64,000 nucleotides of DNA, from positions 806,001 through 870,000 of the forward strand of contig NZ_CP007129.1 in the NCBI RefSeq assembly GCF_000522985.1. The letters are read 5' to 3'. Origin of the DNA: Gemmatirosa kalamazoonensis. Lineage in GTDB: Bacteria > Gemmatimonadota > Gemmatimonadetes > Gemmatimonadales > Gemmatimonadaceae. The stretch's first letter is position 1. Each line of letters opens with the position of its first letter. The position numbers were made by a program, and so were the translations under genes. The notes below the pieces were generated by a model, which was given only the letters and a program-made list of their open reading frames with translations, did no database searches and was not told where the DNA came from. Below are positions 4,262 to 51,786 of this stretch, piece after piece.

Positions 4262-4295
4262 GACGGACCGCGTCAGCTGCAACGATTCGTTAGGC
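4262..4295 (-). repeat. Half attC, distal end of array
   Basis: Only the right arm is present: CAGCTGCAAC, spacer, GTTAGGC. The left arm (R'-L') that should lie near 4200 is missing, so this last site is probably not a recombination partner. Confidence 0.75.
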
Positions 4296-6549: not shown

Positions 6550-6590
6550 GGTGAACGCTCGGTCCGCTCGGCTTCGACGTTTCGTTAGGC
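6550..6590 (-). repeat. attC-like site, short and degenerate
   Basis: A good R'' (GTTAGGC at 6584) but the left partner is only GTGAAC-like and the L-boxes are not of the array type. About 41 bp. Placed here because a cassette junction is expected between the GNAT gene and the broken genes to the left. Confidence 0.4.
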
Positions 6591-8174: not shown

Positions 8175-8272
8175 GCCTAACGCCGGAGTTCGGGTGCGGA
8201 GCGGCGGCGCCGGAGCGCGGCTGCCAGTGCGGGACGCCGCGCCGCTCCGTGAGCTGCAACGATTCGTTAGGC
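8175..8272 (-). repeat. attC site
   Basis: 98 bp. R' GCCTAAC, R'' GTTAGGC. Left L-box divergent (GTTCGGGTGC), right GAGCTGCAAC, stem GGAGCGGC/GCCGCTCC. Confidence 0.85.
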
Positions 8273-8576
8273 CGCGGATCAGCGGGGGACGGCCGAAACT
8301 GCTTCACCAGCCTCCGGAGCGTTCCCACGGGGACGGCGAGCGTGAGCGCGCCATAGCCCGTCAGAAAGATGATGCCCGGAATGCCGCCGCGCACGACGCC
8401 GGGCACGTACCGCGCGCCATTCAGGCCGAGCACGGTGCCCAGCAGCGCGAGCGGCATCGCCGGCTCGCGGTAGTCGCCACGCCGGCTGCAGGGCGGCCGC
8501 GCTCGGGCCCGAGCACGGCGAGCACCGCCAGCTGCGCCGCCACCGTGGTTCCAATCAGCAACCAGGCCAGCTTCAC
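8273..8576 (-). pseudogene. Small membrane protein gene, frameshifted
   Basis: GTG at 8576 opens MKLAWLLIGTTVAAQ with a first membrane segment. After about 30 residues the frame must shift (near 8475) to continue MPLALLGTVLGLNGARYVPG and two further hydrophobic segments. The shifted frame has no stop before the attC and would read on through it as PNESLQL. No single frame gives a complete protein, so I call it broken; an indel error in the sequence would give the same picture. Confidence 0.55.
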
Positions 8577-8611: not shown

Positions 8612-8630
8612 GCCCAACGCGGGAGTTCAG
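8612..8630 (-). repeat. Left half of a split attC (R'-L')
   Basis: GCCCAAC followed by GCGGGAGTTCAG, breaking off exactly after the left L-box start. The matching right half lies at 8846-8901, with the lipoprotein gene between. Confidence 0.75.
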
Positions 8631-8839
8631 TCAGCCGCCACCAGCGTCTCCGGGGGCGTCTTGGCGAGCACACGCTTCGGCGCGTACCCCAGCACCACGC
8701 CGGTGTCGCCATACACCGCTCCCGTCGCCGGATCGCTTCGCACGGGAACCGGTTGCCGCACACATCCACTGAGGAGAAGGCTGCCGGCAACGAGTACGTG
8801 TGAAGTGCGCACGCGATTCCGTCCCGGCGATGGATTCAT
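8627..8839 (-). CDS. Small lipoprotein lying inside a split attC
   Basis: 70 residues. Signal peptide with lipobox LLSGC near residue 26, then a short Pro/Val-rich mature part (VVLGYAPKRVLAK); no family recognised. Its TGA stop is made by the L' box of the left attC half. No crossover core separates its start from the neighbouring stem at 8846. Confidence 0.6.
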   Translation of the reverse strand: MNPSPGRNRVRTSHVLVAGSLLLSGCVRQPVPVRSDPATGAVYGDTGVVLGYAPKRVLAKTPPETLVAAD

Positions 8840-8845
8840 GCCGTA

Positions 8846-8901
8846 CGAAGGCGCTCGTCACTACGTTGCGCGTCTTCGTCAGCTGCAACGATTCGTCAGG
8901 C
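8846..8901 (-). repeat. Right part of a split attC (stem, L'', R'')
   Basis: Retains the stem CGAAGGCGC/GCGCGTCTTCG, the right L-box CAGCTGCAAC and R'' GTCAGGC, but no R'-L' arm. Follows the histidine phosphatase gene. Confidence 0.75.
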
Positions 8902-8912
8902 CGCCCGCGCGA

Positions 8913-9452
8913 TCACACCCAGATTCGACGGAATCGCGTCGGCCCATCGTTGTCGACGTCGACCACGAAGGCATCAGGATTCGAGAGACTCGACCAGACG
9001 TCGAAGCCCACCGTGGCGTCGATCGAGTTCAGGATCAGTGCCAGCAGGTTGCCGTGTGTCACCAGCACACACAGCGCCCCCGACGCCAGGGCCGACCGCA
9101 CGACCGAGGTCCCGCGCGCCTGCGCGGCTCGAGCGGATTCCCCACCGTCCAATCGATAGTCCAGGTCTTCGAACGACCGACGCAGGTGCCCGCGCCAATC
9201 CACCAGCGGTCGCCCGCTGAGCACCCGCTCGACCAACCGACCGTCCGTTTCCAGGCGCAGGGTGGCGCGGTCGCAGAGCGGTCTGATCGACTCGGTTGCC
9301 CGAGCGAACGGACTCGAGATCACTCGCTGAACCCGATAGGGGGACAGCAAGTCGGCTAGCATGTGCGCCTGGCGTTGGCCCTCGCCGGTGAGGGCTGCCG
9401 CCGGGTCCTGGCCGGTCGCGGCCGCGTGCCGCACGAGGATGATCTCTTGCAT
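8913..9452 (-). CDS. Histidine phosphatase superfamily protein (phosphoglycerate-mutase fold)
   Basis: 179 residues. The catalytic histidine sits in the N-terminal LVRHAAATG (canonical LVRHG.T with Gly to Ala). The second conserved histidine is in VLVTHGNLL near residue 132, and SSPFARATES supplies the usual S.-.RA-.T motif. Probable cytosolic phosphatase or SixA-like enzyme; substrate unknown. Ends just before the split attC at 8846. Confidence 0.82.
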   Translation of the reverse strand: MQEIILVRHAAATGQDPAAALTGEGQRQAHMLADLLSPYRVQRVISSPFARATESIRPLCDRATLRLETDGRLVERVLSGRPLVDWRGHLRRSFEDLDYRLDGGESARAAQARGTSVVRSALASGALCVLVTHGNLLALILNSIDATVGFDVWSSLSNPDAFVVDVDNDGPTRFRRIWV

Positions 9453-9475: not shown

Positions 9476-9572
9476 GTCTAACGCTGGAGTTCAGCTGCGA
9501 GGCGGTAGGGCCAGGGCTTCGGGCGTCGGTGGAGTCATGCGCCGCCTCGTCAGCTGTAAGGATTCGTTAGGC
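9476..9572 (-). repeat. attC site
   Basis: 97 bp. R' GTCTAAC, R'' GTTAGGC, class A with one change in the right arm (CAGCTGTAAG). Stem GAGGCGG/CCGCCTC. Confidence 0.9.
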
Positions 9573-15260: not shown

Positions 15261-15390
15261 GCCTAACGCCAGAGTTAAGCTGCGTGGCCGACGCGTGCCG
15301 GCATGATAGAGATCGCTCCGCTCGATGCAGACGGCGGGCGCTTCAACAGTTTGCGTGACGGGCCACGTCAGCTTCAACGATTCGTTAGGC
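15261..15390 (-). repeat. attC site, long subtype, class B
   Basis: 130 bp. R' GCCTAAC, R'' GTTAGGC. L-boxes TTAAGCTG/CAGCTTCAA, outer stem CGTGGCC/GGCCACG and a long loop with TGATAGAGATCGCTCC shared with the sites at 17524, 44537 and 45132. Confidence 0.9.
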
Positions 15391-17523: not shown

Positions 17524-17653
17524 CCCTAACGCCAGAGTTCAGCTGCGTGGCCGACGTATGCCGGCGCGACGGTGGTCGCTCCGCTTGATGGAGGCGGCCG
17601 GCGCAGCACAATCATGCGTGACGGGCCACGTCAGCTGCAACGATTCGTTGGGC
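17524..17653 (-). repeat. attC site, long subtype, class A
   Basis: 130 bp. R' CCCTAAC, R'' GTTGGGC, outer stem CGTGGCC/GGCCACG, loop of the long subtype (GCCGGCGCGACGGTGGTCGC). Confidence 0.88.
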
Positions 17654-19601: not shown

Positions 19602-19699
19602 GTCTAACGCTAGAGTTCAGCTGCGGAGCCGCAGGGTTGGAGCCGGGCTGCCGGGTCGGGATGTTGCGCGGCTCCGCCAGCTGCAACGATTCGTTAGAC
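19602..19699 (-). repeat. attC site
   Basis: 98 bp. R' GTCTAAC, R'' GTTAGAC, class A, stem GGAGCCGC/GCGGCTCC. Same sequence as the sites at 35310 and (except the last bases) 40295. Confidence 0.9.
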
Positions 19700-34932: not shown

Positions 34933-35029
34933 GCCTAACGCTGGAGCTAAGCTGCGAAGGCGCGAGGCTGGAGCCATGCGCCGGGTCGGGACGATGCGCG
35001 CCTTCGTCAGCTTCAGCGATTCGTTAGAC
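34933..35029 (-). repeat. attC site, class D
   Basis: 97 bp. R' GCCTAAC, R'' GTTAGAC. L-boxes GCTAAGCTG/CAGCTTCAGC, stem GAAGGCGCG/GCGCGCCTTC. Repeated at 39918 and 43739. Confidence 0.9.
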
Positions 35030-35309: not shown

Positions 35310-35407
35310 GTCTAACGCTAGAGTTCAGCTGCGGAGCCGCAGGGTTGGAGCCGGGCTGCCGGGTCGGGATGTTGCGCGGCTCCGCCAGCTGCAACGATTC
35401 GTTAGAC
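35310..35407 (-). repeat. attC site
   Basis: 98 bp. R' GTCTAAC, R'' GTTAGAC, class A, same as the site at 19602. Confidence 0.9.
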
Positions 35408-39917: not shown

Positions 39918-40014
39918 GCCTAACGCTGGAGCTAAGCTGCGAAGGCGCGAGGCTGGAGCCATGCGCCGGGTCGGGACGATGCGCGCCTTCGTCAGCTTCA
40001 GCGATTCGTTAGAC
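39918..40014 (-). repeat. attC site, class D
   Basis: 97 bp, same sequence as the site at 34933. R' GCCTAAC, R'' GTTAGAC. Confidence 0.9.
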
Positions 40015-40294: not shown

Positions 40295-40392
40295 GTCTAA
40301 CGCTAGAGTTCAGCTGCGGAGCCGCAGGGTTGGAGCCGGGCTGCCGGGTCGGGATGTTGCGCGGCTCCGCCAGCTGCAACGATTCGTTAGGC
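40295..40392 (-). repeat. attC site, shared with an unrelated cassette
   Basis: 98 bp. R' GTCTAAC, R'' GTTAGGC, class A. Same sequence as the attC of cassette B (19602, 35310) up to the R'' core, but the gene it serves is different. Confidence 0.9.
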
Positions 40393-43356: not shown

Positions 43357-43744
43357 GCGCGGGCCCGCAGCTGCGCGGAACCGTCTCCGCCACATGGCGG
43401 ACGCCGCGGACGCGATCGCCGGCTATGTGGCGCGCGGGCGAGAGGCGTTTGACGCCGATCCGGCTGTCCGCGACGCGATCCTCTACCAGATCATCGTGCT
43501 CGGGGAGGCCGTCAAGGCGGCCCTCGCGGCGGACCCCGACCTTGAAGCCGCCCACCCCAGTGTGGACTGGTCGCCCGTGGCCCGCATGCGCGACCGGGTG
43601 GCGCACCACTACTGGGCGACCCCCCGACCGCGAGGTCGTCTGGGCCACGGCGCGCGACGCCGTGCCAGCCCTGCGGCGGGCGGTGGCAGCGGCGCTCGCC
43701 GCCGCGGAATGACTCGGCGTTCCACGAACTTCGTGGTGGCCTAA
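43349..43744 (+). pseudogene. hepT: HepT toxin, frameshifted copy
   Basis: Same as the gene at 34547 up to YWAT, including the R-x4-H active site. Then a run of C (GCGACCCCCCGACCG) adds 4 bp compared with copy 1 and sends the C-terminal 40 residues out of frame, with a new stop at 43744 overlapping the next attC. The ancestral frame would end at 43712. Probably inactive or altered. Confidence 0.8.
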
Positions 43745-43835
43745 CGCTGGAGCTAAGCTGCGAAGGCGCGAGGCTGGAGCCATGCGCCGGGTCGGGACGA
43801 TGCGCGCCTTCGTCAGCTTCAGCGATTCGTTAGAC
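43739..43835 (-). repeat. attC site, class D
   Basis: 97 bp, third copy of the site at 34933. R' GCCTAAC, R'' GTTAGAC. Confidence 0.9.
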
Positions 43836-44536: not shown

Positions 44537-44666
44537 GCCCAACGCTAGAGTTCAGCTGCGTGGCCGACGCCCGCCGGCGTGATGGAGATTGCTCACCTCG
44601 ATGCAGACGGCCGGGGCTGAACCATTATGCGTGACGGGCCACGTCAGCTGCAACGATTCGTTGGGC
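44537..44666 (-). repeat. attC site, long subtype, class A
   Basis: 130 bp. R' GCCCAAC, R'' GTTGGGC, outer stem CGTGGCC/GGCCACG with the long loop seen at 15261. Confidence 0.9.
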
Positions 44667-45131: not shown

Positions 45132-45261
45132 GCCCAACGCCAGAGTTAAGCTGCGTGGCCGACGCCGGCCGGCTTGATAGAGGTTGCTCCGCGCGATGGT
45201 ACTGGTGGGCGCTCCAACATCATGCGTGACGGGCCACGTCAGCTTCAACGACTCGTTAGGT
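45132..45261 (-). repeat. attC site, long subtype, class B
   Basis: 130 bp. R' GCCCAAC, R'' GTTAGGT. L-boxes TTAAGCTG/CAGCTTCAA, outer stem CGTGGCC/GGCCACG. Confidence 0.9.
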
Positions 45262-50826: not shown

Positions 50827-51786
50827 TCAGTGCATGTCCAGCGGACTGCGCACGCCCGACGCGCTCCGGTTCAGCACGTGCGTGTAGATCATCGTCGTAC
50901 TCACGTCGCGGTGGCCGAGCAGCTCCTGGATCGTGCGGATGTCGTACCCACCCTCCAGGAGATGCGTCGCGAACGAGTGCCGGAAGGTGTGGCAGGTCGC
51001 ACGCTTCGTGAGTCCCGCCTGCAGCACCGCGACGCGGACCGCGCGCTGGACCGCGGACTCGTGGAGATGGTGGCGACGTCGAACGCCGGATGCCGCGTCG
51101 AGGTACGTGCGGGTCGCGGGAAAGATCCACTGCCAGGGCCACGCCGTCCCCAGCAATGGTGACTTCCGCAGCAGAGCGTTCGGCAGCACGACATACCCGC
51201 CACCAGCCGATCGGTCCGCGTCGTGCTGCGACCGAACGGCGTCGAGATGGTCGACCAGCGGTGCACACGCCGCGTCGGGCAGCATCGTGACGCGATCCTT
51301 GTCCCCCTTGCCGGCGCGCACGACGATCGAGCGCGACGCGACGTCGACGTCCTTGACCCGCAGGGTGAGCGCCTCGAGCAGTCGCAGCCCACTGCCGTAG
51401 AGGAGCATCGCCACGAGGCGCGAGGCGCCGTGCATGCACGAGAGGACGCGGTCGACCTCCTCGCGCGTGAGGACGACGGGGAGCCGCTTGGGACGCTTCG
51501 CGGGCGCGAGGCCCGGTACGACACCGAGCGGGTCGCCGAGGACGTCGCGATAGAGGAATTGCAGCGCCGCGAGCGCCTGGTTCTGCGTGGACGCAGTGAC
51601 CTGCGCGTCGGTCGCGAGCGACGTCAGGAAGCGGCCGACGTCGTGTGACGTGAGCTCGCTGGGATGGCGCAGCCCCGACCAGCGGACGTAGCGGCGCACC
51701 CACGCCACGTACGCGTCCTCGGTGCGCCGGCTGTAGTGCCGCACGCGCAGCGACGATCGGACGTTGTCGAGGAGGCGGGATCGCAT
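50827..51786 (-). CDS. intI: Integron integrase IntI
   Basis: 319-residue tyrosine recombinase that moves cassettes between attC and attI. All catalytic residues are visible: Arg in YGSGLRLLE, Lys in RAGKGDKDR, His-x-x-Arg in [16 protein letters not shown], His in [10 protein letters not shown], Tyr in MIYTHV. The IntI-specific extra helix between the Lys and the H-x-x-R box is present ([12 protein letters not shown] through [17 protein letters not shown]), which separates it from XerC/D. N-terminal SAM-like domain [24 protein letters not shown]. Its 3' end faces attI and the array, the reverse of class 1 integrons. It appears intact. Confidence 0.95.

Follow-up and report, generated by a model that had tools for sequence, protein, structure and literature searches.

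The fusion of gene cassettes through partial loss of the attC site between them has already been published, and the closest described case is the blaGES-1/aacA4 fused cassette of class 1 integrons, in which a truncated GES-1 attC, without its stem-loop region, is not used by the integrase (PMC4670013). One case of a truncated attC that was still excised is cited in the same work. As regards the organism considered here, the integron of the 1.1-Mb replicon of Gemmatirosa kalamazoonesis KBS708 is listed among large plasmid-borne integrons (PMC9024848), and, judged by size and content, the integron listed is probably the present array; the passage of that paper on KBS708 does not describe single degenerate sites.

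The window, i.e., the whole stretch of 64,000 nucleotides that was analysed, belongs to replicon C3 (1.106 Mb; 1,106,233 bases) of a 7.48-Mb genome, and C3 carries intI together with more than 80 attC sites. An integrase gene recognised by TIGR02249 stands beside the array, in which 82 strong sites of the R''L''...L'R' type with a stem were found by means of a covariance model trained on 58 array sites. These strong sites span 91-130 bp, with lengths of 93-99 bp nearly throughout, a subgroup of 130 bp and a minimum of 91 bp. The cassettes start near 50.2 kb and end near 4.2 kb, and they read on the minus strand, an orientation given by the gene ends at R'' and by the position of the integrase gene. 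Position 8901 is therefore the 5' (R'') side of the first of the two sites discussed here, while the second has its 3' (R') side at position 8612. The features concerned, in array direction, are listed below; the fused unit is the stretch between the two intact attC sites that bound it.

50827-51786, minus strand: integron integrase gene (TIGR02249, E 7.8e-127, score 423 bits, cut-off 265)
9476-9572, minus strand: intact attC that precedes the phosphatase cassette in array direction and bounds the fused unit on that side (covariance model, 87.1 bits)
8913-9452, minus strand: histidine phosphatase gene of 179 codons, first gene of the fused unit (ORF; PF00300 His_Phos_1, E 1.1e-17)
8880-8901, minus strand: R''L'' half of the attC of the phosphatase cassette, R'' being GCCTGAC (35.8 bits, shuffle maximum 18.3)
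8846-8879, minus strand: central stem of the same attC with both arms retained, 8846-8854 and 8869-8879 (covariance model alignment over 8822-8901, 29.3 bits; stem present in the predicted fold)
8822-8845, minus strand: expected L'R' position of the same attC, at most a worn remnant (aligned by the model; p 0.03-0.08 for the half alone)
8627-8839, minus strand: lipoprotein gene of 70 codons, 3'-truncated (ORF, ATG start, lipobox LLLSGC; C-terminus of the homologues missing)
8612-8630, minus strand: L'R' half of the attC of the lipoprotein cassette, R' being GTTGGGC, and source of the TGA of the gene (25.2 bits, shuffle maximum 12.3)
8279-8576, minus strand: third gene of the fused unit, GTG start at 8576, apparently frameshifted (hydrophobic protein-like stretches in two frames)
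8175-8272, minus strand: intact attC that bounds the fused unit on its other side (78.7 bits)
6569-6590: lone R''L'' half after a GNAT acetyltransferase gene, with no partner L'R'
4274-4295: lone R''L'' half, the final array site, adjacent to non-cassette genes, with no partner L'R'

Several other properties of the array can be noted. The integrase gene lies on the minus strand and hence points in the same direction as the cassettes. In class 1 integrons, intI points away from the cassettes, and the orientation found here differs in this respect. The 130-bp sites (15261-15390, 17524-17653, 44537-44666, and 45132-45261) form a second attC subtype, which has a conserved stem of its own (GCGTGGCCGAC...GACGGGCCACG), and are scattered among sites of the 97-bp type; similar long attC sites also occur in L010 and L011, from another genus. 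Identical or near-identical attC copies can be found at 34933-35029, 39918-40014, and 43739-43835, and likewise at 19602-19699, 35310-35407, and 40295-40392; two adjacent pairs occur among these copies, and the repetition suggests that cassettes were duplicated within the array. On chromosome C2 (5.31 Mb), sequence matching attC halves of the array is present at about 687.6-691.0 kb, so that a second cluster of cassettes is probably located there.

The commonest attC R box, GTTAGGC, is also abundant across the whole genome. Both strands carry it, and its 5,148 copies in the 7.48 Mb correspond to about one per 1.45 kb, whereas the reversed control occurs 314 times; 11 of the 12 relatives checked have 7-145 copies and the remaining one has 998. 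In 400 kb of sampled chromosome, 262 copies are distributed as 141 and 121 between the strands, G precedes every TTAGGC, and one-base variants are nearly absent (e.g., three TTAGCC, no TTAGGG). Across 172 long ORFs sampled, TTA codons are followed by GGC in 88 of 96 instances; since genes also carry the motif on their template strand, codon choice alone does not account for it. A preceding C and a following A or G are favoured (extended form C-GTTAGGC-R), and copies outside the array are found in the window at, e.g., 1355, 1763, 2084, 3077, 3461, 52869, 53844, 57213, 61983, 62580, 63402. Judged from its distribution, GTTAGGC looks like a selected genome-wide motif, either DNA-uptake-sequence-like or architectural.

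At 8612-8901, the sequence-only reading had reported two attC halves, and both were confirmed, its sequence and coordinates being right: GCCCAACGCGGGAGTTCAG at 8612-8630 and CAGCTGCAACGATTCGTCAGGC at 8880-8901, each with a score (in position-weight bits) above the largest maxima of 20 window-sized shuffles. Next to the second, the stem arm CGAAGGCGC at 8846-8854 pairs with GCGCGTCTTCG on its right. The 290-bp span is the only adjacent pair in the array with abnormal spacing, all other paired sites covering 91-130 bp. The description of these elements as matching left and right halves stood insofar as two good halves are present, whereas their orientation is the reverse of that described, the array being on the minus strand, and their match proved uninformative. 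Their complementarity amounts to 12 of 14 pairs, and halves of unrelated array sites average 12.45; since any two halves of the array match equally well, this complementarity was rejected as a sign of one original site. The idea that the 290-bp structure might still fold as an attC was likewise not borne out: the strand folds no better than its shuffles (z 0.12), and 0.5 pairs between the halves are expected in the predicted fold, against a median of 11.8 in ordinary sites. R' and R'' are thus not at attC distance, nor are they closed onto one stem in the predicted fold.

The intervening gene has the 70 codons, the lipobox, and the stop codon made from an L box that had been read from the sequence, its TGA (8627-8629) lying within the L' box; GTG 8810-8812 is an alternative start. 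It resembles a family of small lipoproteins of the Gemmatimonadaceae (alignment A2), whose pattern comprises a lipobox, KxV..K..P..LxAxD, and a motif resembling DGTxCxVxxxRFxxxxVxxxVxCxW at the C-terminus. In 16 other Gemmatimonadaceae genomes, all homologues extend to position 88-89 of the 90-position profile, while the window copy ends at position 66, at the L'-derived TGA, and the closest homologue, from another genus of the family, runs about 28 residues past this stop, as the others do in a similar manner. As the N-terminal part is present and the C-terminal motif absent, the window copy is read as a truncated member of the family, and its break falls exactly at the start of the L'R' half. 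No attC sites were found beside the homologues, none of which lies in an integron, so that intact forms of the lipoprotein are not known as cassettes. Further matches in about 30 genomes of another family were rejected, as they fall in a frame, interrupted by stops, that is antisense to a conserved peptidase. An R''L'' half between the lipoprotein gene and L'R', searched for within 8631-8800, is absent (best score -9.5 bits, null median -5.8). Both the break at L' and the missing R''L'' are explained by one deletion of the 3' end of the gene, R''L'', and the stem.

It is thus likely that 8612-8901 represents the remains of two neighbouring attC sites, and not one attC, at the distal end of a sedentary integron, where the array is old and decaying. 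Of the two possibilities raised by the sequence-only reading, the loss of complementary halves by neighbouring sites is the better supported, given the missing C-terminus, the absence of R''L'' by L'R', and the lone halves nearby. The attC of the phosphatase cassette would have lost its L'R' end by point decay or deletion while keeping R'', L'', and the central stem. The next cassette would originally have carried a small lipoprotein gene, and a deletion of some 150-170 bp, a size estimated from homologue and attC lengths, would have joined codon 70 of this gene to the L' of its own attC, taking with it the conserved C-terminus, R''L'', and the stem, so that a TGA in L' became the new stop. 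Two separate losses would be required. We infer the order of these events, deletion as their means, and a loss of recombination at both halves. Relatives with the same or undeleted cassettes were found neither in plasmids nor, at the DNA level, in 99 relative genomes, and the phosphatase had none in viral contigs; the ancestral state is therefore deduced from the protein homologues.

Decay is also apparent beyond this pair of sites. Between R'' and the R' with which the same cassette begins, mismatches number 0-0.06 per cassette in the 20-50 kb range but 1.0-1.5 below 11 kb, and the covariance scores of the attC sites also drop at the distal end. The lone R''L'' halves at 4274 and 6569 indicate that attC halves have been lost separately in this part of the array.

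How much of the attC of the phosphatase cassette persists is less clear-cut, and it is a real possibility, if somewhat short of an even chance, that this site is complete and heavily worn, with a length of 80 bp (8822-8901), and that only the second site lost a half. As a variant of the reading as two decayed sites, it has its probability counted inside that reading. The stretch 8822-8901 can be aligned to the covariance model from end to end, and the GTG start (8812) would lie about 9 nt after the R' so defined, near the 5th percentile of the array leaders (9.6 nt). The alignment score, however, comes mostly from the right half, and the R' core would be without its GTT (GCCGGGA). In view of the p value of the L'R' part alone, 8822-8845 is at most a candidate for a decayed L'R' box; it may be a worn L'R' remnant or replaced sequence. 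The loop of this attC is also about 20 nt below the usual length.

An insertion of about 215 bp (8631-8845) carrying the 3'-truncated lipoprotein gene into one attC, between the L' box and the stem, is unlikely. It has the merit that a single event suffices, and the flanks 8612-8630 and 8846-8901, put together, make up a complete, if short, attC layout (75 bp). This joined 75-mer would, however, be the shortest attC of the array, and its halves, without the intervening stretch, are expected to form 3.5 mutual pairs, below the 5th percentile of ordinary sites (4.45). Moreover, the break of the gene fragment would have to coincide exactly with the L' box, neither inverted nor direct repeats of an inserting element are seen at the two ends, and the lone halves elsewhere at the distal end show that halves can be lost without insertion. 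The proposal of a gene inside one split attC thus gives way on three points: a truncated family member breaking at L'R', an R' that is not closed onto R'', and unpaired halves elsewhere. It is highly improbable that a small gene was inserted in the arm of a single attC and that the enlarged site still recombines; if this were true, attC sites would be landing places for new genes. An assembly misjoin between similar attC sites can hardly be credited either, for while arrays of similar attC sites are noted in PMC9024848 to complicate assembly, and the gene is truncated at the joint, the genome is in four contigs and rated 100% complete, and a misjoin between attC copies would normally yield a whole chimeric attC and not a joint of codon 70 to L'.

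With the 290-bp span taken as the remains of two decayed sites, the outcome would be one unit between attC 9476-9572 and attC 8175-8272, comprising the phosphatase gene, the truncated lipoprotein gene, and a third, apparently frameshifted gene. At about 1.2 kb, the stretch between these two sites is two to three times the usual cassette body. In the third gene, one frame contains a hydrophobic N-terminal stretch and a different frame a longer hydrophobic stretch, and a search in the correct frame found no homologue to prove the frameshift. As in blaGES-1/aacA4, partial attC loss between two cassettes joins genes into one unit (PMC4670013), the first site here being without a recognisable L'R' and the second without R''L''. 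The coding regions are not all complete, the lipoprotein lacking its C-terminus; complete coding regions are a feature of the published fused cassette and not of fusion generally. In blaGES-1/aacA4, both genes are whole and one attC was hit. The present unit differs in that two consecutive sites have been hit, on opposite sides, in that its middle gene is truncated, and in its location at the distal end of an array that numbers more than 80 cassettes. By analogy with blaGES-1/aacA4, the fused unit would be expected to move, if at all, as one piece, and only the intact attC at its end would still be usable as its recombination end.

Taken together, these observations carry a warning that matching half-sites prove no split site, since all halves of one array match. 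On the reading preferred here, the locus would offer a snapshot of the oldest end of a sedentary integron wearing out, in which attC halves are lost, gene ends are lost, and cassettes become locked together.
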